Source: Bacillota bacterium (GTDB lineage Bacteria > Bacillota > Sulfobacillia > JABLXB01). Taken from it: DNA of 64,000 nt. The position numbers and the translations under genes are program-made. The notes below the pieces were generated by a model. The model had not been told where the DNA came from, made no database searches, and was given only the letters and a program-made list of their open reading frames with translations. The stretch spans positions 372,001 to 436,000 of the forward strand of contig JABLXB010000003.1 in the NCBI GenBank assembly GCA_013178305.1, read 5' to 3'. Shown in pieces: positions 41,286 through 56,021 of this stretch. How positions within the stretch are numbered: position 1 is the stretch's first letter; every line of letters starts with the position of its first letter.

Positions 41286-41312
41286 CCCCCGGGAAGATCC
41301 CGGGGGTTTTCG
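41286..41312 (+). terminator. Intrinsic terminator after sigF
   Basis: CCCCCGGGA (41286-41294), loop AGA, TCCCGGGGG (41298-41306), then TTTTCGCTTCTTCT. A 9-bp perfect stem. Confidence 0.88.
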
Positions 41313-41335
41313 CTTCTTCTCTGCGCCTGGACAGG

Positions 41336-41365
41336 GCATTATCGTCAGGCGATAGGAGCATAATA
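41336..41365 (+). promoter_or_regulatory. Sigma-G promoter of the dodecin-spoVA operon
   Basis: GCATT (41336-41340) fits the sigma-G -35 GHATR at four of five positions. CATAATA (41359-41365) fits the -10 CATWMTA exactly, and the spacer is 18 nt. spoVA is sigma-G-controlled in Bacillus subtilis. The site is 51 bp before the dodecin start. Confidence 0.65.
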
Positions 41366-41416: not shown

Positions 41417-41635
41417 ATGTCAGTGGCTATCGTGAAGGTGTTCGAGCTCGTGGGGGAGTCGAGCAAAGACTGGCAGGACGCGGCGACAAACGCCATCGCC
41501 GAGGCCAGCAAGGCCGTCGACAAGATCGTCGCGGCCGAGATCGTCAACTGGACCGCGAACATCAGCGAGGGCAGGATCAAGGAGTACAAGGCGAACGTGA
41601 AGGTTGCCTACGTGGGTGAAATTCGCAGCATCTGA
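41417..41635 (+). CDS. Dodecin family flavin-binding protein
   Basis: A 72-residue protein with the dodecin fold: KVFELVGESSKDWQDAATNA, KAVDKIVAAEIVNWTANISE, ending KEYKANVKVAYVGEI. Dodecins form hollow 12-mers that store flavins or related cofactors. ATG start. Placed between sigF and spoVAC behind a sigma-G-type promoter, it may be made in the forespore, which is not a role I know for dodecins (inference). Confidence 0.88.
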   Translation: MSVAIVKVFELVGESSKDWQDAATNAIAEASKAVDKIVAAEIVNWTANISEGRIKEYKANVKVAYVGEIRSI

Positions 41636-41679
41636 CGGCGGCGCTGTGGTGCGCTTCCGGCCGGCGTGGTCGACCGGTG

Positions 41680-41710
41680 GGGTCCGCCCGCTCGAGCGGC
41701 GGACCCTTTC
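41680..41710 (+). terminator. Hairpin between dodecin and spoVAC
   Basis: GGGTCCGCC (41680-41688) pairs perfectly with GGCGGACCC (41698-41706) around CGCTCGAGC, followed by TTTCG. It could attenuate transcription so that dodecin is made in excess over spoVA, or terminate and leave spoVA to another promoter. Confidence 0.6.
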
Positions 41711-41730
41711 GAATGACGGGGTGTGTGGAT

Positions 41731-42189
41731 TTGAAAGCCAGCTCTGCTCAGGCTAAGGAGTACCAGAAACTCGTAAACCAGAAATCGCCGCCGCGGCCGA
41801 TTCTGAGGAACACTGTGCTCGCGTTCCTGGTTGGAGGCCTCATCTGCGTGGTCGGCCAAGTGATCTTGGGCGGCCTCACCGCGCGCGCCGGTATGGGGCG
41901 GACAGAGGCGACCTCCCTGACATCGGGGATCATGGTCGCGCTGGGGTCGACGCTGACAGGGCTGGGCCTGTATGACGAGATCGGGCGCGTAGGGGGCATG
42001 GGCTCAGCGATTCCAATAACCGGGTTCGCGAACTCGATAACCTCTCCGGCGATGGAATTCAAGACCGAGGGATTCATTCTCGGGCTCGGGGCCAGAATGT
42101 TCACGATCGCCGGACCGGTGATCGTGTACGGGCTCATCACGGCGGTCGCGGTCTCAGCGCTCAGGATCTTCTTCCTCCGGGGGTTATAG
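41731..42189 (+). CDS. spoVAC: SpoVAC, dipicolinic acid channel protein
   Basis: About 152 residues, four TM helices. Conserved PILRNTVLAFLVGGLICVVG and PITGFANSITSPAMEFKTEG. SpoVAC is the mechanosensitive inner-membrane subunit that moves dipicolinic acid into and out of the spore core. The TTG at 41731 lies after GGGGTG and gives the family-like MKASSAQAKEYQKLV; an ATG at 41713 is also in frame. One nt separates the stop from spoVAD. Confidence 0.92.
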   Translation: MKASSAQAKEYQKLVNQKSPPRPILRNTVLAFLVGGLICVVGQVILGGLTARAGMGRTEATSLTSGIMVALGSTLTGLGLYDEIGRVGGMGSAIPITGFANSITSPAMEFKTEGFILGLGARMFTIAGPVIVYGLITAVAVSALRIFFLRGL

Positions 42190-42190
42190 T

Positions 42191-43258
42191 ATGGCGTTGA
42201 AGTGGGCCGGGAGGCAAACGGTGTTCCTCCAGAAGCCCCCCGTAATAGCGTCGTCGGCCGCTGTCGCCGGCCCCAAGGAGGGGAGAGGCCCGCTGGGGGC
42301 CGAGTACGACCTCGTCCTGGAGGACCTCAGGGACGGGCAGAAGTGCTGGGAGCGGGCGGAGACGCGGATGCTCTCCAGGGCGGTTCAGATCTGCCTCGAC
42401 AAAGTGGGGCTGAAGCCCAACGACATCCAGTTCTTCATAGCGGGCGACCTCCTGAATCAGATTACCTGCGCAAACGCCGTTGCCCGCGACCTCTCCATCC
42501 CGTTCGTGGGCATATACGGAGCCTGCTCTACGCTGGCCGAAGGTATGGCCATAGGTTCGATGCTGATCGACGGCGGGTTCGCGGAGAGGGTGATGGTGGC
42601 CACATCCAGCCACCACAACACGGCCGAAAGGCAGTACAGGTACCCCACGGAGTTCGGGGCGCAGAGGACCCCCGCCTCCCAGTGGACGGTCACGGGCGCC
42701 GGCGCATTTCTTCTGGCGGCCAAGGGGACGGGCCCTCGCGTCACCCACGCTACCGTTGGGTCGGTCGTCGACATGGGCATGAAGGACGTGAACGACATGG
42801 GAAGTGCCATGGCGCCCGCTGCCGCGTCGACGATACGGGCGCACTTCACCGATACTGGCAGGACCCCGGCGGACTACGACGTGGTCCTCACAGGCGATCT
42901 GGCCTCAGTGGGCAAGGCTCTCTGTGACGAACTCCTCAAGCAGCAGGGGCTGGACCTTTCGGGTAGGTACGAGGATTGCGGGCTCATGGTGCTCCGCAAG
43001 GACCAGGACGTCCACGCGGGGGCGAGCGGCTGCGCCTGTTCGGCCCTGGTGCTTTCGGGGCGCGTCCTCAAACTCCTCGAGGCCGGCAAGTACAGGCGAG
43101 TGCTCATGGTGGCGACGGGCGCCCTGCACAGCCCGCTTACGTACCAGCAAGGCGAGTCCATACCGTGTATCGCGCACGGGATCGCGATAGAACGAGTGGG
43201 CGACGCATCCGCGAGGGACCTGGACGCGGGTGTCAAGGAGGAGGCTCTGCAGCCGTGA
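42191..43258 (+). CDS. spoVAD: SpoVAD, dipicolinic acid-binding protein
   Basis: A 355-residue thiolase-fold protein that binds dipicolinic acid at the spore membrane. Features: GRQTVFLQKPPVIASSAAVA, FVGIYGACSTLAEGMAIGSM, ATSSHHNTAERQYRYPTEFG and CGLMVLRKDQDVHAGASGCA. ATG start; 4-nt overlap with spoVAEb. Length is normal. Confidence 0.95.
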   Translation: MALKWAGRQTVFLQKPPVIASSAAVAGPKEGRGPLGAEYDLVLEDLRDGQKCWERAETRMLSRAVQICLDKVGLKPNDIQFFIAGDLLNQITCANAVARDLSIPFVGIYGACSTLAEGMAIGSMLIDGGFAERVMVATSSHHNTAERQYRYPTEFGAQRTPASQWTVTGAGAFLLAAKGTGPRVTHATVGSVVDMGMKDVNDMGSAMAPAAASTIRAHFTDTGRTPADYDVVLTGDLASVGKALCDELLKQQGLDLSGRYEDCGLMVLRKDQDVHAGASGCACSALVLSGRVLKLLEAGKYRRVLMVATGALHSPLTYQQGESIPCIAHGIAIERVGDASARDLDAGVKEEALQP

Positions 43259-43605
43259 ATCTGATGCTCGCTTTCCTTGTGGGCGGGGCGATATGCGCGA
43301 TCGCGCAGCTCGTCGTCGACCTGACGAAATGCAACCCCGCCGTGGTCATGGTATCGTCCGTCAGCGCGGGCGCGATACTCAGCGGCCTCGGGGTGTATGG
43401 ACCCCTCGTGGAGCTCGGTGGCGCGGGTGCGACTGTCCCCCTGACCGGCTTCGGCCACTCGCTAGTGCAGGGGATAATGGAGGACTCGGCGCGCCTCGGG
43501 TTCCTGGGGCTGTTGACCGGGGGGCTGCGGGCGACGTCTTTGGGGCTGTCGGCGGCGATCGTCATGGGTTACCTGATGGCGCTGCTGTTCAACCCGAAGG
43601 AGTAA
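43255..43605 (+). CDS. spoVAEb: SpoVAEb, dipicolinic acid channel protein
   Basis: A 116-residue protein with about four TM helices, paralogous to SpoVAC: MNLMLAFLVGGAICAIAQLV and TVPLTGFGHSLVQGIMEDSA. The GTG at 43255 overlaps the spoVAD stop (GTGA). Together spoVAC-AD-AEb make up the conserved core of the dipicolinic acid transport operon. Confidence 0.94.
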   Translation: MNLMLAFLVGGAICAIAQLVVDLTKCNPAVVMVSSVSAGAILSGLGVYGPLVELGGAGATVPLTGFGHSLVQGIMEDSARLGFLGLLTGGLRATSLGLSAAIVMGYLMALLFNPKE

Positions 43606-43619
43606 CGGGACTCGAGAGG

Positions 43620-45443
43620 ATGGATCGAACGAGGGTGCCGCGGGCGAGGACGCGCCCGAGAGGGATGCGCAGGCCGAAGACACCGGCAGAATTGAAGAGG
43701 CTCAGGCTCGAGGAGCTCGCAGGGGAGATCGCTGCGGAACTGGCTCCCCCGACCGGCGGCGGACGCGCAGGCGAGGGTGCCGGGGGCGGCGCGTCCGGTG
43801 GAGGCGGCGGACGCATGGGGGACCCGGGGGGGCAGATCGGCGACAGACCGGTCTCGCCGGACCTCGACGAGAACGTCACCCTGATAAAGGCGTTATTGAA
43901 TCCCAGCGATGACATAGTGTTCCGCGAAATATCAATAGGCCACGAGCAGCACATCCGCGCGGAAATTGTATTCATCGACGGCATAGTGGACAAGTCCACT
44001 ATCCACGAGCACGTCATGAAGTCCCTGATGCTGCACACGGAGCGTATCTTCCCCGCGCCCCCGAGGGGCAAGGGCCTCGGGGACGTAATCAAGGAGTTCT
44101 CCCTCACCGTTGGAGAGGTCAAGACGTCCACGAAAATGGGGGACGTGATCGACGCCGTACTCAATTCGGACACAGCGCTGTTCATTGACGGCGTCCCCAT
44201 TTGTTACATCGTCAACACCAAGGGGTGGGAACACCGGAGCGTCCAGGAGCCTAACATAGAGTCCGCCGTCAGGGGGGCGCGGGAGGGGTTTAACGAGGTA
44301 CTCCGGACCACGACGGCGCTCGTCAGGCGGCGCATAAAGGACAGCCGGCTGAGGGTGAAGCAGATGAGGCTGGGCCGGAGGACCAAGACGGACATCGCGG
44401 TCATTTACCTGGAGGGGGTCGCCAACGAGCAGATCGTCGCGGAGGTGTTCTCGCGCCTTCGTGACATCGACGTCGACGCCGTGCTGGACACTGGCCACCT
44501 CGAGCAGCTGATAGAAGACAATCCCTATTCGCCGTTTCCGCAGATGCAGGCCACCGAGAGGACGGACAAGGTCGGGGCGTCGATCCTGGAAGGCAAGGTG
44601 GCGATCGCGTGCGACACCACGCCGTTTGTGCTACTGGCACCCGCGACCCTGTGGGCTTTCTACCAGACATCGGACGACTACTTCGAACGCTGGATCATCG
44701 CAACATTCGTGCGGGCGCTGCGGTTTCTCGCGCTGGTGACGGCCCTCGTGCTCCCTTCACTGTACGTATCCCTGGTGGCGTTCCATCCGGAGATGATACC
44801 CGCAAAGATTGCCCTGCCGCTGGCCGGTATACGGTCCGGCCTGCCATTCAACGCGGTTCTCGAGCTACTCATCCTGGAGCTCTCCGTCGAGACTCTCCGC
44901 GAGGCGAGCGTGCGCCTGCCTGGTCCCATCGGGCCGACGATAGGCATAGTCGGCGCGATCGTCATTGGCGAGGCTGCGATCCGCGCCGGCCTTGTTGGTC
45001 CCCTGGCCGTCATACTCGTCGCCACAACCACGATCGCCTCGTTCGTGTCGCCGAGTTACAGTGCTGGAATTGCTGTGAGGGTGTTGAGGTTTCCACTCAT
45101 CGCGCTTGCGGCGATGCTGGGTCTGGTCGGTGTCATGGTGGGAATAATAGCGATCAGCATTCATGTCTGCGGGCTCGACTCGTTCGGGGTCCCATACCTT
45201 TCTCCGATTGTCCCGCTGACGACCGGTGATCTTAAGGACACAGCGGTACGCCTGCCGCTCTGGGCGATGAAGATGCGGCCGCTGCACCTCCGGCCGGTCG
45301 ACGTCAGGCGGATGGCGCAGAGCGTGAGCGCGCTAGAGACAGGACGAGCCGCCAAACGGATCGATCTCGGACAGCCTGCGAGCGACCGGGACAAGGGCGC
45401 GGGGGAAGGGGCGGGCGGTCCCGGGGGAGGGAGCGGGCAATGA
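43620..45443 (+). CDS. gerA: GerA-type germinant receptor A subunit (GerAA/SpoVAF family)
   Basis: A 607-residue protein with a soluble N-terminal half and at least five TM helices in the C-terminal half (from about residue 350). Family signatures: DLDENVTLIKALLNPSDDIV, GWEHRSVQEPNIESAVRGAR, EGFNEVLRTTTALVRRRI, RLPGPIGPTIGIVGAIVIGE and FVSPSYSAGIAVRVLRFPLI. Because gerB and gerC follow, it is best read as a receptor subunit, although its position after spoVAEb is also that of spoVAF. Unusual: an ~75-residue Gly/Arg-rich N-terminal extension and a Gly-rich C-terminal tail. Confidence 0.92.
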   Translation: MDRTRVPRARTRPRGMRRPKTPAELKRLRLEELAGEIAAELAPPTGGGRAGEGAGGGASGGGGGRMGDPGGQIGDRPVSPDLDENVTLIKALLNPSDDIVFREISIGHEQHIRAEIVFIDGIVDKSTIHEHVMKSLMLHTERIFPAPPRGKGLGDVIKEFSLTVGEVKTSTKMGDVIDAVLNSDTALFIDGVPICYIVNTKGWEHRSVQEPNIESAVRGAREGFNEVLRTTTALVRRRIKDSRLRVKQMRLGRRTKTDIAVIYLEGVANEQIVAEVFSRLRDIDVDAVLDTGHLEQLIEDNPYSPFPQMQATERTDKVGASILEGKVAIACDTTPFVLLAPATLWAFYQTSDDYFERWIIATFVRALRFLALVTALVLPSLYVSLVAFHPEMIPAKIALPLAGIRSGLPFNAVLELLILELSVETLREASVRLPGPIGPTIGIVGAIVIGEAAIRAGLVGPLAVILVATTTIASFVSPSYSAGIAVRVLRFPLIALAAMLGLVGVMVGIIAISIHVCGLDSFGVPYLSPIVPLTTGDLKDTAVRLPLWAMKMRPLHLRPVDVRRMAQSVSALETGRAAKRIDLGQPASDRDKGAGEGAGGPGGGSGQ

Positions 45444-46546
45444 ACCGCGAGACCATCTCGGCTAACCAGATTATGTCCATAGTTGCGTCGTCGCTGATAG
45501 GGGTTTCCATCCTTGCGCTGCCGAGCAGCGTGGCAAGGGTCGCTGGCCCCGACGGCTGGATATCGTTCCTACTCGCGTGGGCGGGGAGTATGGCGGCGCT
45601 CTACCTTGTGGTTGCCCTGGCGCGCAGGTTTCCCGGTGAGTCCCTCCTTCAGTATTCCATACATATCCTGGGTAGACCGGCCGGGACGGCCGCTACTTTT
45701 CTCTTCGGGGTCGTGGAGCTCGTCTCGAGTGCGCTGGTCACTCGAGTGTTCTCGGAGGCCGTCGTCAGCGCCGTCCTCCCAGAAGCGCCTCACGAGGTCA
45801 TTTGCGCCGCCATGACGGCGCTGGTAGCGTACCTGTCGCTACAGAGGGTTCGCGTGTTTGCACGCGTTCACGAGCTCTTCCTCGTACCCATCCTCGTTAC
45901 GTTCGGCCTGTTCATTTTGTCAGTCTACCAGAACGCATACCTGGCGAACATCACGCCTGTGCTTGCGCGGGGAGCGGGGCCGGTGCTCGCGGGTGTGGCG
46001 AGGACGTCGCTGGCGTTCCAGGGTTTCGAAATCATGCTCCTGTTCTTCGCATACGCCGCAAACCCGGGGGAGATCGCCCGGTCGTCGCTTCTCGGGTTGA
46101 GCCTCGCAGGAGTCCTGTACGTGACGGCGATTGCGGGCGTGACTGCGGTGTTCGGCCCGGAACACCTCAAGTCGTTACAGTGGCCCATGCTGGAAGCGAT
46201 CAGGATAGTCGGTGCGTCGCCCGGGGTCGGATTTGAACGGATCGAGTCACTGTTCATGACGGTCTGGATGATCGCGGCATTCACGTCCGCAGGCGCGCTC
46301 GGGTATGCGGGAATCCGCGCTTTGAGCGATGCCATCGGTTGGCAGGATGCGACCCTGTCGGTGCCCGTGTTTTCGCCCGTGTTGTACGCGATATCCCTGG
46401 CCCCCTCCAACCTGTTCAGCGTGCTCGATGCCTCATCGCTGTCCGGCCAGGTCGCGATCGTCTATACCGTACTGCTGACAATCACCCTCCTCGGGGTGGC
46501 GGTCATAAGGCGGAGGCGGGGGGATTCCGGTGCCCGCACCCGATAA
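45440..46546 (+). CDS. gerB: GerB-type germinant receptor B subunit (GerAB/ArcD/ProY family)
   Basis: A 368-residue APC-superfamily-like membrane protein with ten predicted helices. Family features are ISANQIMSIVASSLIGVSIL at the start and WISFLLAWAGSMAALYLVVA. In known receptors the B subunit binds the germinant. ATG start with 4-nt overlap on gerA; the 3' end overlaps gerC by 17 nt. Confidence 0.92.
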   Translation: MNRETISANQIMSIVASSLIGVSILALPSSVARVAGPDGWISFLLAWAGSMAALYLVVALARRFPGESLLQYSIHILGRPAGTAATFLFGVVELVSSALVTRVFSEAVVSAVLPEAPHEVICAAMTALVAYLSLQRVRVFARVHELFLVPILVTFGLFILSVYQNAYLANITPVLARGAGPVLAGVARTSLAFQGFEIMLLFFAYAANPGEIARSSLLGLSLAGVLYVTAIAGVTAVFGPEHLKSLQWPMLEAIRIVGASPGVGFERIESLFMTVWMIAAFTSAGALGYAGIRALSDAIGWQDATLSVPVFSPVLYAISLAPSNLFSVLDASSLSGQVAIVYTVLLTITLLGVAVIRRRRGDSGARTR

Positions 46547-47717
46547 GACCGTGAGCCTCTTGCGTCCGCACCGGCGTGGGACCGGGCCATGGAGTGTTCT
46601 GTGCCTGGCCGCCGCCTGCGCCTTGCTTACCTGCGGCTGCTGGGGTTCGCTCGACATCGAGGAGCGCGCCATCGTCACAATGGTAGGGATAGACCGCGGA
46701 GAGAAGGGAGTCAAGGTCTCGCTGGAAGTGGCGATAAACGAGAAAATGGCCAAGGAGGGTGGCGATGGCGGCGGCGGCGGCGGTGAGGAAGCGTTCGTCG
46801 TGGTGCACGAGGACGAGGCCAGCACGGCCGAGGCGATTCACCGCCTCCAGGACAAGGTCTCGATGCCGATGTACCTGGGGCACCTGAAAGTGGTAGTCTT
46901 CGGTGAGGAATTCGCCAGGGAGTCCGGCATCATGGAACCGCTTGCGGCGCTGACGCGGCACCCGGAAATCCGTGGGCAGGTGTGGATCGCCGTAGCCAGG
47001 GGGACGGCCGAGGACCTGATGCACCACAGGATCAAAGCCGAGCGACTGCCGGCAGCCTACCTGGAGAGGCTGCTCAACACGGGCAAGAGGTTCGGGCATA
47101 CCGCTGATTCGAGGCTGAGCGCGGTGTCGTCGAAACTCGACTTACCGGGGTATCACCCGCTATTACCCATACTGAAGGCTGATGAGGGCTCGGTCGAAAT
47201 CGAGAACGCCGCGGTGTTCTTCAACGACAGGCTCGTCGGCGAACTGGAACACGACGAAATGCACGACTTCGCCCTGGTTGAGGGCGTTCACACGGCGGGG
47301 ACCTACTCCATCCCTTCGCCGAGGGGCCGGGGAAAACTCTACGTGTTGCTTCGCGGCGCCCGTAAAAAAGTGAGCGTGACGCAGGACGGTGACCGGGTAA
47401 CGATCAGCCTGAAGATCCGGGCAGATGGCAACGTCGTGGAGGATTCCGGGGACGCCCCGCGGGCAACCGCAGGCACTGAGACCGCGGGGAAGGTCGTCAA
47501 AGCCCTGGAACGACAGTTAAACGACGAGATCAGCCACCACGTCGAGGACCTCATCAAGAAGGTTCAGACACAGTACGGCGCGGACATATTCGGATTCTCG
47601 CGGCACGCCGGCCGGTTGAAATTTGAGGAGAAGAAGTGGGATGCCGTGTTCCCGACCGCCGATGTCCATGTAGAGGTGAACGTCATGCTCCGCAAGTTCG
47701 GTCTGGGGGAGGTGTGA
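46530..47717 (+). CDS. gerC: Ger(x)C-family germinant receptor lipoprotein
   Basis: A 395-residue GerAC-type lipoprotein: N-terminal hydrophobic segment ending in LLTCGCWGSLDIEERAIVTM, then MVGIDRGEKGVKVSLEVAIN and the C-terminal domain EISHHVEDLIKKVQTQYGAD. The lipobox is TCGC rather than the usual LTGC; the second Cys is still well placed for lipidation. A Gly-rich insertion (GGDGGGGGGEEA) interrupts the first domain. GTG start inside gerB. Confidence 0.9.
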   Translation: MPAPDKTVSLLRPHRRGTGPWSVLCLAAACALLTCGCWGSLDIEERAIVTMVGIDRGEKGVKVSLEVAINEKMAKEGGDGGGGGGEEAFVVVHEDEASTAEAIHRLQDKVSMPMYLGHLKVVVFGEEFARESGIMEPLAALTRHPEIRGQVWIAVARGTAEDLMHHRIKAERLPAAYLERLLNTGKRFGHTADSRLSAVSSKLDLPGYHPLLPILKADEGSVEIENAAVFFNDRLVGELEHDEMHDFALVEGVHTAGTYSIPSPRGRGKLYVLLRGARKKVSVTQDGDRVTISLKIRADGNVVEDSGDAPRATAGTETAGKVVKALERQLNDEISHHVEDLIKKVQTQYGADIFGFSRHAGRLKFEEKKWDAVFPTADVHVEVNVMLRKFGLGEV

Positions 47718-47721
47718 GGCA

Positions 47722-47958
47722 GTGCTGGATGCCGTTATGCAACTCGGCCCCTACATCTTCCTGGGCTTCCTGGGATCGGGGGTATTCCTGCTGTCCGTGA
47801 CCGCTCCCCGCCTCAAGGCCGCAGGTGTACGGCAATCAGGTGAGCCGGAAAAGGGGCCCCGGCCGGGGCCGCAGCCGGTGGCGGTGGCCACCGGCATCGG
47901 GTGGCTGTACATCATATTCGGAGCCCTGGGTCTCGTGCTCATGGTGGTCGTCACATGA
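47722..47958 (+). CDS. Small two-helix membrane protein downstream of gerC
   Basis: A 78-residue protein with TM helices at about residues 10-29 and 56-77 separated by a Pro/Gly/Lys-rich loop. GTG start 5 nt after the gerC stop; overlaps the next gene by 4 nt, so it is part of the same transcript. Small accessory proteins of this size often accompany ger operons. I cannot assign a family. Confidence 0.6.
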   Translation: MLDAVMQLGPYIFLGFLGSGVFLLSVTAPRLKAAGVRQSGEPEKGPRPGPQPVAVATGIGWLYIIFGALGLVLMVVVT

Positions 47959-48953
47959 GGCTCTCGGTGGTGGCAGCGGGCTGTATAGGGATCCCGCGAG
48001 GCCTGTTGTATTACGAGTATTTCCCGCTCTGGAGCGAGTTCTTTAAACGGCTCGGGTTTCGCGTGACTGCCGCGAACAACACGACCCGCAGGATCCTGGA
48101 CGCCGGAGTGACGTGTGCGGTGGATGAGGCGTGCCTGCCCGTCAAGGCATATCTCGGGCATTGCATTGAAACGGCGTCCGGGTGCGACCTGTTATTCGTT
48201 CCGAGGGTAGTCAGCGTGGAGCGAGGAGCCTACACGTGCCCGAAGCTCCTGGGTCTTCCGGACATGGTCAACGCCATGAACCTGGGGGTACGCGTTCTCA
48301 CCGCAGTGGTCGACGTGACGCGACGGGGTCACGGCGCATTCGTCGCCGCCATGTCCCTCGCGGGTGAACTGGGGGTTGGGCGGGTCGCGGCTCTTCGGGC
48401 GTACCTGGCAGCACTCCTTGAGTACGCCCGCTTCAGGCACAGGCTGAACGGGACCGGCGGCTGGTTCGATAACACAGCCGGTGCGCGGCCGGTAGGGCCG
48501 GGAGCGCTGCCAAGAGTGCTGGTGCTCGGCCATTCGTACGTCGTCAACGATCCGGGGCTGAACCTGGGCTTGAGGCAGCACATCGAGCGCCTCGGGGCGT
48601 CGCCCTTCACGGTGGATTCCCTGCCGTGGCGCGCCGTGAACGGGCACCTCAGGGGCCTGTCAAAGCCGATATTCTGGACGTACCAGAAGAAGATGTACGG
48701 TGGCGCCATGTACCATATTCGTAACCACACGTGCGACGGGATAATACAGGTTGCCTCGTTCGGGTGCGGGCCGGACTCCCTCATAGCCGAGTTGATAAGG
48801 AGAGAAGCGGACAGGAAGCGGGTACCATATATGGCGTTGACCGTGGACGAGCACACCGGTGAGGCCGGCACGGTGACCAGGGTCGAGGCTTTCCTGGACA
48901 TGCTGACGCGGCGCGTGAGTGACCGCGTACGCGAGGAGGCTACGGAGCATTGA
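47955..48953 (+). CDS. Acyl-CoA dehydratase activase-related protein (DUF2229-like), first
   Basis: A 332-residue protein with the family start VVAAGCIGIPRGLLYYEYFP, then CAVDEACLPVKAYLGHCIET and PRVVSVERGAYTCPKLLGLP. It carries many Cys residues for an iron-sulfur cluster. Relatives are the C-terminal modules of large 2-hydroxyacyl-CoA dehydratase activases and the dehydratase subunits themselves. The DEHTGEAG near the end recurs in the next gene, showing paralogy. ATG start overlapping the small membrane gene by 4 nt. The substrate is unknown. Confidence 0.8.
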   Translation: MRLSVVAAGCIGIPRGLLYYEYFPLWSEFFKRLGFRVTAANNTTRRILDAGVTCAVDEACLPVKAYLGHCIETASGCDLLFVPRVVSVERGAYTCPKLLGLPDMVNAMNLGVRVLTAVVDVTRRGHGAFVAAMSLAGELGVGRVAALRAYLAALLEYARFRHRLNGTGGWFDNTAGARPVGPGALPRVLVLGHSYVVNDPGLNLGLRQHIERLGASPFTVDSLPWRAVNGHLRGLSKPIFWTYQKKMYGGAMYHIRNHTCDGIIQVASFGCGPDSLIAELIRREADRKRVPYMALTVDEHTGEAGTVTRVEAFLDMLTRRVSDRVREEATEH

Positions 48954-50074
48954 GGGTTACGTTTCCCCGCATGGGTAACTCGCACATACCGCTCAGGGCT
49001 TTGTTCGAGTCGGCGGGCGTCGAGGTGGTCCTGCCGCCCCCCAGCAGCAGGCGGACGGTAGCACTCGGCGCGCGGCACTCCCCCGAGTTCGCGTGTTTCC
49101 CGCTGAAGCTGAACATCGGGAACTTCATCGAGGCTGCTGAATCCGGCGCCGACACCATGGTCATGGCCGGGGGTATAGGGCCCTGTCGCTTTGGATATTA
49201 CGCCCAGGTTGAGCGCGAAATCCTTGCGGACATGGGCTTCGACCTCGAGATGGTGGTGCTGGAGCCTCCCTGCACCGGTTGGGTGGGGCTGGCCTCCCGT
49301 ATCCGGAAGATCACCGGAGGCTGCGGGGTGACGGGGCTCCTTCGGGCCGCGAGGCTCGCCTGGGTGAAATGCGGCGCGGTGGACGAAATCGAATCGGTTT
49401 CCCGCAAGGCCAGGCCGGTGGAGAGGTCGCGTGGGGCCGTAACGCGCGCCATGGAGGAGGCGCTCGCGTTGCTCGACGACGCCGGCACAGTGACCGCTGC
49501 CAGGAAAGCGCTGGCGGCCGGTTGTGAGATGATCTGGAGCGCCACGGGCTTTCCCGTGGACGATCCGGAGCCGATACGGGTGGGTATCGTCGGCGAGATA
49601 TTCATGGTTCTCGACGGTTTCTCGAACATGGATGTCGAGCGTCGGCTCGGCGAGATGGGCGTGGAGGTTCACAGGTTCCTCTCCATGGGAGAGTGGGTAC
49701 GGTCGAACCTCCTGCCGAAGTCGTTCATGCCCCACGAGGCCCGCGAAATGGTAGCTCTGGCGAGCCCGTACCTGAACTACTTCGTTGGGGGACACGGTGT
49801 CGAGTCTGTGGGCGGGGTGCGGGTGTACGCTCGCCTCGGGTTCGACGGGGTGGTACAGATAATGCCGTTCACCTGCATGCCCGAGATCGTTGCGCAGAGC
49901 GTACTGAAGAACGTCAGTCGCGACCATTCGATCCCCGTGCTGACGCTGAGCCTGGACGAGCACACCGCCGAGGCGGGGTTGCAGACCAGGCTGGAGGCGT
50001 TCGTCGATCTCCTCAAGAGGCGGCGTGTCATGAAGGCTGCGGGCCGGACCGAAGAGGGGGTCACCCCGCTGTGA
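48950..50074 (+). CDS. Acyl-CoA dehydratase activase-related protein (DUF2229-like), second
   Basis: A 374-residue protein: VTFPRMGNSHIPLRALFESA, ARHSPEFACFPLKLNIGNFI, GGIGPCRFGYYAQVEREILA, and near the end CMPEIVAQSVLKNVSRDHSI with DEHTAEAGLQTRLEAFVDLL. It is the distinct second module found fused to the first in large activases; here the modules are separate genes. TTG start with 4-nt overlap. Cys residues again suggest an Fe-S cluster. Confidence 0.8.
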   Translation: MRVTFPRMGNSHIPLRALFESAGVEVVLPPPSSRRTVALGARHSPEFACFPLKLNIGNFIEAAESGADTMVMAGGIGPCRFGYYAQVEREILADMGFDLEMVVLEPPCTGWVGLASRIRKITGGCGVTGLLRAARLAWVKCGAVDEIESVSRKARPVERSRGAVTRAMEEALALLDDAGTVTAARKALAAGCEMIWSATGFPVDDPEPIRVGIVGEIFMVLDGFSNMDVERRLGEMGVEVHRFLSMGEWVRSNLLPKSFMPHEAREMVALASPYLNYFVGGHGVESVGGVRVYARLGFDGVVQIMPFTCMPEIVAQSVLKNVSRDHSIPVLTLSLDEHTAEAGLQTRLEAFVDLLKRRRVMKAAGRTEEGVTPL

Positions 50075-51018
50075 GCCTGTACCTCGGGATCGACGTGGGT
50101 TCGGTTAGCACTGACGTTGCGCTCATAGACCCGCGGAACGGGCTGGTAGCGGGGGCGTACCTGATGACCCGCGGCCAGCCGATCCGCGTGGTGCAGGAGG
50201 CCCTCGACGAGATCGCCGCAGCGGCCACGGTTCCGCACGAAATATCCGGCGTGGGGACCACCGGGAGTGGCAGGCACCTCGCGGCTGCCATAGTGGGGGC
50301 GGACGCGGTGAAGAACGAGATCACGGCTCACGCCGTGGCGGCGCTCGCTCGCGTGCCCGACGCGAGGACGGTAATAGAGATAGGCGGCCAGGACTCCAAG
50401 ATCATAATCCTCCGGGATGGAGTCGTCGTGGATTTCGCCATGAACAGCGTGTGCGCCGCGGGTACAGGGTCGTTCCTGGACAGGCAGGCATCGCGCCTGG
50501 GGATCCCCATAGAGGAGTTCGGGACCATAGCGCTCAGGTCGAAGAACCCGGTCCGCATAGCGGGGCGGTGCGCGGTATTCGCCGAATCCGACATGATCCA
50601 CAAGCAGCAGGTCGGTCACACGGTAGAGGACATCGTGTGGGGGCTGTGCCAGGCGCTTGTCAGGAATTACCTGAACAACGTGGGGAAAGGGAAGGAGATC
50701 AGGCCCCCTGTGGTGTTCCAGGGAGGTGTGGCGGCGAACGCCGGGATGAAGAAGGCGTTCGAGGAAGCGCTGGGCATGGAGGTGATCGTGCCGGGGGAGC
50801 ACAAGCTGATGGGAGCGATCGGGGCTGCCATCCTTGCCAGGGAGGCACGCCCGAAACCCGCGACGTCGTTCAAGGGGTTCGATGTGGCGCGGCAGAGGTT
50901 CGTCTCCGGCGGTTTCGAATGTTCAGGGTGCTCCAACATGTGCGAGGTAACGGAGATCCGCTCGGGTGACAGCCTGGTCGCCAGGTGGGGCGGGCGCTGC
51001 GGGAAGTGGTCGTCGTAG
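50071..51018 (+). CDS. BcrAD/BadFG-type acyl-CoA dehydratase activase (ASKHA ATPase)
   Basis: A 315-residue ATPase of the actin/Hsp70-like superfamily: phosphate loops LYLGIDVGSVSTDVALID and VIEIGGQDSKIIILRDGVVV. The cluster-binding Cys of FAMNSVCAAGTGSFLDRQAS and the later FQGGVAANAGMKKAFEEALG are present, plus a C-terminal CSGCSNMCEV. Such activases reduce their dehydratase partner with ATP. GTG start overlapping the previous gene by 4 nt; it ends the transcript. Confidence 0.88.
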   Translation: MSLYLGIDVGSVSTDVALIDPRNGLVAGAYLMTRGQPIRVVQEALDEIAAAATVPHEISGVGTTGSGRHLAAAIVGADAVKNEITAHAVAALARVPDARTVIEIGGQDSKIIILRDGVVVDFAMNSVCAAGTGSFLDRQASRLGIPIEEFGTIALRSKNPVRIAGRCAVFAESDMIHKQQVGHTVEDIVWGLCQALVRNYLNNVGKGKEIRPPVVFQGGVAANAGMKKAFEEALGMEVIVPGEHKLMGAIGAAILAREARPKPATSFKGFDVARQRFVSGGFECSGCSNMCEVTEIRSGDSLVARWGGRCGKWSS

Positions 51019-51085: not shown

Positions 51086-51718
51086 ATGCCCTACCTGCAA
51101 GCGCTCATACTGAGGATACCCGGGCTGGTCGCCGGCTTCGCGTTCCACGAGTATGCGCACGCTCTGGTGGCCGACAGGCTCGGCGATCCCACGCCCAGGA
51201 TGTACGGCAGGCTTACGCTCGAGCCGTGGGTGCACATGGACCCGTTCGGGACCCTGGCGCTGCTATTCTTCGGCTTTGGATGGGCGAGACCGGTGCCCAT
51301 CAATCCGTATAACTTCAGGCGGGTCAGGGACGGGGTAATCAAGGTCTCGATCGCGGGACCCCTGATGAACATACTCGTCGCGGGTGTGTTCGCGGTGTTC
51401 ATGCGCCTCGCTGCCTACATCGGCGGGATGTCCCTCCTGTACGACATAATGCAGAGCGGGTTTATCGTAAACGCCGGTCTCGCTGTCTTCAACCTCTTTC
51501 CGATCCCGCCGCTTGACGGCTCCAAGGTGCTTGCCGGGATCCTGCCGCGCGAGGCGGCGTCAGTATTTGAGCAGGCTGAACGATACGGCCCGCTGTTCCT
51601 GGTACTGATCCTCTCAACCGGGGTACTCAACGGTCTTCTGTGGGGGTTGACGAAGCTCCTGATGAGCGGGCTCTACGGGTGGGCGAGGGCGATTACCTGG
51701 TTCCTTCCGGTCCGGTGA
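51086..51718 (+). CDS. Site-2 protease family (M50) membrane metalloprotease
   Basis: A 210-residue membrane protein. The zinc motif HEYAH is in GFAFHEYAHALVADRLGDPT; the third ligand region is NLFPIPPLDGSKVLAGI, and FGWARPVPINPYNFRRVRDG is typical of the YwhC/Rip3-like subgroup. Five or six TM helices. The ATG at 51086 follows GGAGATGG. This protease commonly precedes scpA in clostridia; its substrate is unknown. Confidence 0.9.
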   Translation: MPYLQALILRIPGLVAGFAFHEYAHALVADRLGDPTPRMYGRLTLEPWVHMDPFGTLALLFFGFGWARPVPINPYNFRRVRDGVIKVSIAGPLMNILVAGVFAVFMRLAAYIGGMSLLYDIMQSGFIVNAGLAVFNLFPIPPLDGSKVLAGILPREAASVFEQAERYGPLFLVLILSTGVLNGLLWGLTKLLMSGLYGWARAITWFLPVR

Positions 51719-54216: not shown

Positions 54217-55056
54217 ATGAGGCCGATCTGGAAAGGCTCGATCTCGTTCGGACTGGTGACCATCCCTGTCCGCCTTTACGCTGCCACCGAGCGCAAGGAC
54301 CCGAAGTTCAACTACCTTCACCAGCCCTGCGGTTCCCCCGTCAGGTACTTGAAGTGGTGCCCGTACTGCAATCGCGAGGTGCCCGCCGAGGAGATCGTGT
54401 GGGGGTACGAGTACGAAAAGGGGCGCTACGTACTCCTCAATGAGGAGGATCTCAACATGGTTCCGGCACCCGAGGCGAGAGCGCTTACTATTGAGGACTT
54501 TATCGATATCCGCGAGATTGACCCCATCTATTACGACAAGACCTACTTCCTTGAGCCGGGTGACGGTGGGGCCAGGGCATACGCCCTTCTGAGGCAGGCG
54601 ATGCTGGACCGCGGTCGAATCGCGCTGGCGCGCGTCGCCCTCAGATCCAGGGAAACCCTCGCTACCATCAGGGTGTACGGCGGTCAAGTGCTCGTCATGG
54701 AGACCATGATGTGGCCCGACGAGATCCGCGACACCGCCGGCCTGCAGATTCCCGCTCTCGGAGATGTGGACCGGCGGGAGGCGCAGATGGCCCAGACCCT
54801 CGTGGACACGCTCTCGGCGCCCTTCGAGCCGGCGCGATACCGGAGCAGGGGCAGGGAGCGGCTGGTGGAGCTGATAGAGGCCAAAGTCCAGGGGCGGGAG
54901 ATCCAGGAGCCGCGGCTTCCGGAGGCGGCGAAAGTCGTTGACCTCATGGAGGCGCTGAAGAAGAGCATCGCACGGGCAGGTGAAGGGCGCCCCACTTCGC
55001 CGGCCGCTGAAGCCGGCGGGGCGGCAGGCGAGCGTGCCGGCGGATTACCGCACTGA
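54217..55056 (+). CDS. ku: Non-homologous end-joining protein Ku
   Basis: A 279-residue bacterial Ku: MRPIWKGSISFGLVTIPVRL, YLKWCPYCNREVPAEEIVWG, GYEYEKGRYVLLNEEDL and IDPIYYDKTYFLEPGDGGAR. It binds double-strand ends and recruits LigD. C-terminal tail Gly/Ala-rich. ATG start; its stop overlaps the ligase ATG by 1 nt. Spore formers often express Ku/LigD in the forespore for repair at germination. Confidence 0.96.
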   Translation: MRPIWKGSISFGLVTIPVRLYAATERKDPKFNYLHQPCGSPVRYLKWCPYCNREVPAEEIVWGYEYEKGRYVLLNEEDLNMVPAPEARALTIEDFIDIREIDPIYYDKTYFLEPGDGGARAYALLRQAMLDRGRIALARVALRSRETLATIRVYGGQVLVMETMMWPDEIRDTAGLQIPALGDVDRREAQMAQTLVDTLSAPFEPARYRSRGRERLVELIEAKVQGREIQEPRLPEAAKVVDLMEALKKSIARAGEGRPTSPAAEAGGAAGERAGGLPH

Positions 55057-56021
55057 TGTGCGCAGCCGAGATCGACCCCGTGTCGGGCCCGGTACCCCCG
55101 ATGCTCGCCACCCCTGTCGAGAAACCATTTGATTCTCCGGACTACGCCTTCGAGCTGAAATGGGATGGGTACCGCGCCATTGCCTTCGTAGGTGCGCGGG
55201 ACGGCCGAGGTGTCACGCTGCAGAGCCGGAACCTGAGAGACATAACCTCCGAGTTTCCGGGGCTCGCGGGTATTCACCGCAGGATCAGCGGGGGGCGCGC
55301 CACGCTCGATGGGGAGATTGTGGTAATGAAGGGCGGGAGGCCCAGTTTCCAGGCGCTCCAGCACCGGGAGGAACCGCCGGTGTACGTGGCGTTCGACATT
55401 CTCAGCCTGAACGGGAAGAGCCTGCTGGAGCAGCCGTTCGGGGAACGTAGACGAGTTCTCGAGGATTCGGTCCAGCCCGGCGGCGACATCATCCTCTCCA
55501 GCACATTCGAGAGAGAGGGCGTGAGGCTCTACGAGACTGCGTCGGAACGCGGCCTTGAGGGTATAGTGGCGAAGCGGCTCGACAGCCCATATGTGCCGGG
55601 AAGACGCAGCTCCTACTGGTTGAAAATCAAGGCCAGGCGCGCCGCGGACTGCGTCATCGGGGGGATCAACAGGGGCGTGGGGACTCCTGTGGGATCCCTC
55701 GCCGTGGGACTCTATGACGGTGATGAGCTTATCTACGTTGGGAGTGTGGGGGCGGGGCTTACCGATGCCGTCCGCCTCGATCTGCTCTCGCGGCTCAAGG
55801 CCGCGGAGGCGCCGCCGTTCTCATTCGGCCGCCGCGGCATCCCGCGCGAGGTCCGGGGGGCATTCTGGGTGGGGCCGGATACCGTCTGCGAGGTGGGATA
55901 CGCGGAAATGACGAAAGACTTGAGACTCAGACAGCCCTCGTACCTGAGGCTCCGTGAAGACAAACACCCGCGTGAATGCGACTTCGTACAGATCTTCCCC
56001 GATCGCCCCGCGGAGAGGTGA
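55056..56021 (+). CDS. ligD: ATP-dependent DNA ligase (LigD ligase domain as a separate protein)
   Basis: A 321-residue ATP-dependent ligase with Lys35 as the adenylated residue (FELKWDGYRAIAFVGA), TLDGEIVVMKGGRPSFQALQ, the motif EGIVAKRLDSPYVPGRRSSY and WLKIKARRAADCVIGG. The OB domain ends FGRRGIPREVRGAFWVGPDT. It corresponds to the ligase part of LigD; no nuclease or polymerase domain is fused. Confidence 0.93.
   Translation: MCAAEIDPVSGPVPPMLATPVEKPFDSPDYAFELKWDGYRAIAFVGARDGRGVTLQSRNLRDITSEFPGLAGIHRRISGGRATLDGEIVVMKGGRPSFQALQHREEPPVYVAFDILSLNGKSLLEQPFGERRRVLEDSVQPGGDIILSSTFEREGVRLYETASERGLEGIVAKRLDSPYVPGRRSSYWLKIKARRAADCVIGGINRGVGTPVGSLAVGLYDGDELIYVGSVGAGLTDAVRLDLLSRLKAAEAPPFSFGRRGIPREVRGAFWVGPDTVCEVGYAEMTKDLRLRQPSYLRLREDKHPRECDFVQIFPDRPAER

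Follow-up and report, generated by a model that had tools for sequence, protein, structure and literature searches.

ATP-driven electron transfer coupled to a change in cluster-helix angle is established for HgdC/HadI, the activators of the 2-hydroxyacyl-coenzyme A (CoA) dehydratases (HadBC/HadI, HgdAB/HgdC), and for DCCP-R, the activator of the double-cubane cluster protein DCCP (PDB 6ENO, 7YYL). To our knowledge, genes of this kind are absent from the spoVA operons described in detail for B. subtilis and several clostridia. Here, we analyzed a 64,000-nucleotide (nt) stretch of DNA (the window; contig JABLXB010000003.1, positions 372,001 to 436,000, assembly GCA_013178305.1) from a Bacillota bacterium of the class Sulfobacillia, in which three open reading frames (ORFs) on the plus strand, namely ORF1 (47955..48953), ORF2 (48950..50074, TTG start) and ORF3 (50071..51018, GTG start), hereafter the triad, are the last genes of a longer sporulation locus, 3' of gerABC and a small gene encoding two transmembrane segments. 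We propose, with a probability of roughly 60%, that the triad is a self-contained ATP-driven iron-sulfur (Fe-S) oxidoreductase, has long been an integral component of the spoVA operon of anaerobic Firmicutes and is made in the forespore.

The annotation of the triad in an earlier note, i.e., two DUF2229-type proteins and one ASKHA ATPase encoded by three genes with 4-nt overlaps next to a small membrane gene behind gerABC, was confirmed. The stop codon of the small gene (47722-47958) and the ORF1 start share ATGA, whereas the ORF1/ORF2 and ORF2/ORF3 overlaps (4 nt each) are TTGA and GTGA, respectively. ORF1 matches DUF2229 (4e-44) and, at its C terminus, HGD-D (PF06050; 1e-6), barely over the cut-off (29.0 versus 28.4). 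ORF2 is a diverged DUF2229 protein (1.2e-9) with a C-terminal HGD-D match (3.7e-5, score 23.9) that falls under the cut-off, and ORF3 matches both BcrAD_BadFG (4.9e-51) and TIGR00241 (200 bits versus a cut-off of 125.4). A single-sequence search of ORF2 against solved structures returned chance matches only, the family emerging by profile and fold searches. In a comparison of profiles with 30 genuine HGD-D proteins, the aligned region spanned 249 columns for ORF2 and 141 for ORF1. AlphaFold models of both proteins, built from shallow alignments (7 sequences), reached a predicted local distance difference test score of ~80 and a predicted template modeling (TM) score of 0.81-0.82. Foldseek searches of the PDB with the ORF2 model retrieved at E<=1e-3 only the 2-hydroxyisocaproyl-CoA dehydratase HadBC, the benzoyl-CoA reductases BzdNO/MbdON and DCCP, and the best 17 matches of the ORF1 model were HadBC, BzdNO, MbdON or DCCP, followed by NifEN. 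With E values down to 2e-9, the models thus predict an HGD-D-type fold over the whole chain of either protein.

Conserved Cys residues further substantiate this assignment. Cys60, Cys95 and Cys271 of ORF1 are kept in 93/93 homologues, as are Cys49 and Cys309 of ORF2 in 92/92 and its Cys79 in 91/92. The third Cys of each protein aligns with a Cys in the C-terminal segment of DCCP and HadC, and three conserved Cys per subunit, a hallmark of the HGD-D superfamily, predict cluster binding by both. On the other hand, ORF3 has the traits of an HgdC/BadFG activator (component A), that is, an ASKHA ATPase domain and two bridging Cys (Cys128 and Cys167, kept in 75/75) that correspond to the HgdC pair. 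Its CxxCxxxC...C tail (Cys284, Cys287, Cys291 and Cys310; 50920-51018) is nearly always kept and is not present in solved HgdC-type activators. Because of the modeled fold and conserved Cys of ORF1 and ORF2, and of the Cys pair and tail of ORF3, the triad looks like a complete two-component system of two enzyme subunits and their matching activator, rather than the modules of an activase without its enzyme that had initially been suggested. The statement that no dehydratase is present stands in that genuine PF06050 enzymes were not found in the whole genome, but not in that ORF1 and ORF2 themselves have the predicted dehydratase/reductase fold. The little-studied DUF2229 proteins thereby gain a likely identity as enzyme subunits of an ATP-driven Fe-S oxidoreductase. 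In three other loci, ORF1 and ORF2 are naturally fused in one open frame of ~755 amino acids (aa) next to a separate ORF3, which supports that both act together.

The triad resembles the 2-hydroxyacyl-CoA dehydratases in its two enzyme subunits and ASKHA activator, the fold of both subunits, their three conserved Cys and the activator Cys pair. However, identity in structural alignments is ~12-14%, sequence similarity is C-terminal only, ORF2 scores below the Pfam cut-off and the triad activator bears the extra four-Cys tail. Moreover, the triad is located in spoVA with no adjacent CoA-transferase, acyl-CoA or other fermentation genes, its neighbors being sporulation and housekeeping genes, and in this respect departs from a genuine 2-hydroxyacyl-CoA dehydratase system. 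DCCP/DCCP-R is alike in fold and ATP-driven activator and provides the best structural match of ORF1, but DCCP is one polypeptide of ~420 aa, and ORF1 and ORF2 score far below the NCBIfam double_cubane (NF040772) cut-off (18 and 15.6 bits versus 350). Class I benzoyl-CoA reductases (BzdNOPQ, MbdONPQ) share the fold, and ORF3 is most similar to MbdQ (5e-46), but the triad lacks a second activator subunit type and nearby aromatic-degradation genes. Large DUF2229/ASKHA 'activase' proteins (~1,450 aa), with no established function and partially matched in several relatives, hold the same domains in one chain, but are much more distant from the triad.

In the window, dacF-spoIIAA-spoIIAB-sigF is directly followed by the run dodecin-spoVAC-spoVAD-spoVAE-gerABC-triad in what is one sporulation locus, and then by M50-scpA-scpB-ytfJ. 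This is the gene order of the spoVA operon (spoVAC-D-E-F) after dacF-spoIIA-sigF and before lysA/scpAB; since the B. subtilis order is dacF-spoIIA-spoVA-lysA-...-scpAB, the triad occupies the spoVAF-to-lysA transition. We then summed neighborhoods by family over three samples (same-class relatives, 40 loci chosen by an ORF2 match in the phylum, and 40 spoVAC-chosen loci), mostly of anaerobic spore-forming Firmicutes. A spoVA- or ger-linked triad was found in 52 of the 83 families, with the order spoVA-triad-M50-scpAB in many families of the same class. Among the ORF2-chosen loci, a sample biased to query-like copies, 33/40 had spoVA and/or a gerA-type gene and 3 more the M50/scp side only. Linked triads lie on the same strand, mostly <300 nt from the last sporulation gene. 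Neighbor clustering placed sigF, spoIIAB, spoIIAA and dacF upstream and a lysA-like gene, among others, downstream (named by eye), and lysA/M50/scpAB/ytfJ recur downstream of linked triads. For a random site in a 2-3 Mb genome, chance linkage would be expected in ~1% of genomes. The family survey rules out chance or a local oddity.

The distribution of the triad parallels this adjacency. Across 299 genomes of the phylum, 209 have both triad and spoVA, 41 spoVA only, 7 the triad only and 42 neither (odds ratio ~30; the p-value is descriptive, as related genomes are not independent), and both conserved adjacency and co-occurrence support membership of the triad in the spoVA operon. None of the 17 genomes with a strong COX1 match (E<1e-140, as for true haem-copper oxidases) has the triad; 14 of them, from 8 families, have spoVA (p = 1e-12 among spoVA genomes over these 8 families). 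Conversely, the triad is present in 18/18 genomes with weaker COX1-family matches of ~480 aa, which we infer to be qNOR-like. Absence alongside COX1 fits an oxygen-sensitive enzyme, with the caveat that aerobic lineages differ in many further traits.

Many genomes contain a second triad. In a quick maximum-likelihood tree of 92 ORF2 proteins, 18 unlinked second copies formed one clade apart from the linked ones (Shimodaira-Hasegawa-like approximate likelihood ratio test support of 100), and the linked label changed 10 times as compared to 27.6 in shuffles. The separate unlinked clade and the few label changes suggest that linked copies are an old positional lineage, which need not be a single clade. 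The second, unlinked triad of this genome, at ~230.5-233.7 kb of contig C2 (L043:8520-11682), falls within the unlinked clade. By eye, it lies near genes resembling a 4-hydroxybutyryl-CoA dehydratase, an acyl-CoA transferase and a Na+-decarboxylase beta subunit. Neighbor clustering of the unlinked second copies revealed no recurrent neighbors that hint at a substrate.

By analogy with HgdC/HadI and DCCP-R, an ORF3 homodimer would bind ATP, alter its cluster-helix angle and drive low-potential electrons into a component D-like enzyme formed by ORF1 and ORF2, each probably with a cluster on its three Cys, while the four-Cys tail of ORF3 may hold a further cluster or metal. Since anaerobic Firmicutes appear to have had the triad as an integral part of spoVA from early on, its products would most likely be synthesized in the forespore and packaged into the spore, where they could act on a small molecule late in forespore development or at revival. 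SpoVA moves dipicolinic acid (DPA), for which we have no evidence as a substrate of the triad. Several observations weigh against this proposal of a spore-borne oxidoreductase. Dormant spores are generally considered poor in ATP. Foldseek TM-scores were moderate (0.43-0.58), so that the models point to a fold common to HGD-D enzymes rather than fixing its details, and the sequence similarity of ORF1 and ORF2 to HGD-D is limited to the C-terminal third to two thirds. The triad was present in just 12/40 spoVAC-centered loci, mostly one per new family and chosen independently of the triad, five having been picked for a triad lying elsewhere. Besides, the triad is also missing from 27 spoVA genomes that have no strong COX1 match, and is therefore not essential for anaerobic sporulation. 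Finally, triads occur in seven genomes without spoVA and in two Atribacterota genomes, in which SpoVAC/SpoVAEB were not found, and the enzyme can thus work outside sporulation. The Atribacterota triad groups among spoVA-linked copies in the quick tree, which suggests acquisition by transfer.

These last genomes also fit a different explanation, namely that the triad encodes an enzyme of vegetative metabolism, such as acyl-CoA or amino-acid fermentation, and was kept behind spoVA by frozen gene order, perhaps being read through, with no spore role. The housekeeping genes lysA, M50 and scpAB share this frozen neighborhood, and the second triad has the nearby 4-hydroxybutyryl-CoA metabolism-like genes. 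However, triad presence tracks spoVA across the 299 genomes, and genomes with two copies usually keep one of them at spoVA, with the other falling in a separate clade. In the window, the three genes follow ger with 4-nt overlaps, and no sigma-70 site lies in between. We consider this alternative unlikely. A worse fit is that the triad is an orphan activator reducing a dehydratase or reductase encoded elsewhere, as the clear HgdC-type ATPase nature of ORF3 and the Pfam name 'CoA enzyme activase' of the ORF1/ORF2 family would have it. The predicted enzyme fold and three Cys of ORF1 and ORF2 speak otherwise, and there is no candidate partner in this genome, which is one of the 87/216 triad genomes that lack a genuine HGD-D enzyme, rendering such a role quite improbable.

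The triad might also serve the germinant receptor, e.g., by redox sensing or by setting GerABC activity, since in the window it trails gerC by the small gene and 4-nt overlaps. Nevertheless, gerABC and the small gene (43608-47958) fill the slot of a lone GerA/SpoVAF-type gene in most relatives. GerABC occurs in that slot only in the family of the window and a few others, and in most linked loci, either a lone GerA/SpoVAF-type gene or nothing stands between spoVAE and the triad. Indeed, the window gerA is 29-34% identical to the lone GerA-type genes of relatives and 47-69% to those followed by gerB-gerC. The conserved partner of the triad is spoVA, gerABC being a local stand-in for spoVAF, and a Ger-specific role, which we rejected, is hardly credible. 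The 78-aa two-transmembrane protein (47722..47958, plus strand) has a weak CLC_0170 match under the cut-off and a similar ORF at the same place in three other loci; its position makes it a probable Ger D-subunit-like component of the ger operon. We likewise give next to no credit to, and rejected, the triad making or remaking DPA in place of dpaAB: this genome has spoVA, whose products move DPA, and no dpaA match at E<=1e-20, but dpaA is present in 215/299 genomes, many also with the triad, without any anti-correlation or replacement pattern, and it is the mother cell that makes DPA, whereas spoVA is expressed in the forespore.

Thus, of the spore link put forward in the earlier note, the association itself gained support from dozens of linked families, co-occurrence with spoVA and a distinct linked group, while its attribution to ger specifically did not hold. 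That note had also considered that a vegetative promoter at 47.7-48.0 kb and missing linkage in other genomes would argue against it; the 52 linked families contradict the latter, and no sigma-70-type match was found at that interval or elsewhere on the plus strand between 41.2 and 51.8 kb. As it had surmised, we found no description of the triad linkage: a full-text search of the main text of a set of openly accessible papers returned no link of DUF2229 or these activases to sporulation, and the main text of a 2012 sporulation gene survey (PMC3533761) mentions neither 'activase' nor 'DUF'. We regard the triad as a variant of a known enzyme kind whose conserved genomic context is new. Most work on sporulation has used aerobic Bacillus, and a control search did not find DUF2229 in B. 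subtilis; if our proposal is true, this additional spoVA module would be endospore biology hidden from the model organism, and the triad may be an unrecognized redox module of anaerobic spores. Linkage to spoVA points to a cell type and time in which to search for the substrate, so that the question can be tested directly.

As for transcription, the best sigma-G-like site between 41.3 and 51.1 kb, GGCATT-N18-CATAATA (41335..41365, plus strand), is a candidate forespore promoter upstream of dodecin-spoVAC whose score was reached in 3/200 shuffles of the 380-nt gap; such consensus matches are not evidence of function. It follows a terminator-like hairpin right 3' of sigF (41286..41306, plus strand; 9-bp stem, TTTT tail), a type of site about equally numerous in shuffled sequence. 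From this site, sigma-G-dependent forespore transcription may extend to the triad.

The operon is headed by a dodecin gene (41417..41635; PF07311, 2.6e-20), which lies on the plus strand, as do the spoVA, ger and M50 genes. Dodecins are flavin stores. A dodecin gene lies directly upstream of spoVAC in 47/73 usable spoVA loci, specifically in 41/49 with a linked triad versus 6/24 without; both traits may simply follow lineage. Our literature search found no paper that connects dodecin with spoVA. Tentatively, and with more doubt than conviction, we envisage that the spoVA operon of the first anaerobic endospore-formers carried a redox kit, with dodecin at its head and an ATP-driven low-potential Fe-S reductase at its tail, loaded into the forespore for anaerobic maturation or low-potential restart at revival, and lost repeatedly in aerobic lineages such as Bacillus, so that it was never seen in the model organism.

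Dodecin is followed by spoVAC (41677..42189; PF03862, 3e-36), spoVAD (42191..43258; PF07451, 1.5e-148), spoVAE (spoVAEB; 43255..43605; PF03862, 6.5e-32), gerA (43608..45443, approximate start; PF03323, 3.5e-176), gerB (45440..46546; PF03845, Spore_permease, 1.5e-55) and gerC (46530..47717; TIGR02887, Ger(x)C, 1.6e-73). Downstream of the triad, the M50 site-2 protease gene (51086..51718) forms the conserved flank with scpA and scpB, named from sequence and gene order, and ytfJ, a DUF2953 gene standing between scpB and ytfJ. Shortly 3' of the spore locus, at 54217-56021, lie Ku and LigD-type genes of bacterial end joining, named from sequence, which are also found in three other loci.

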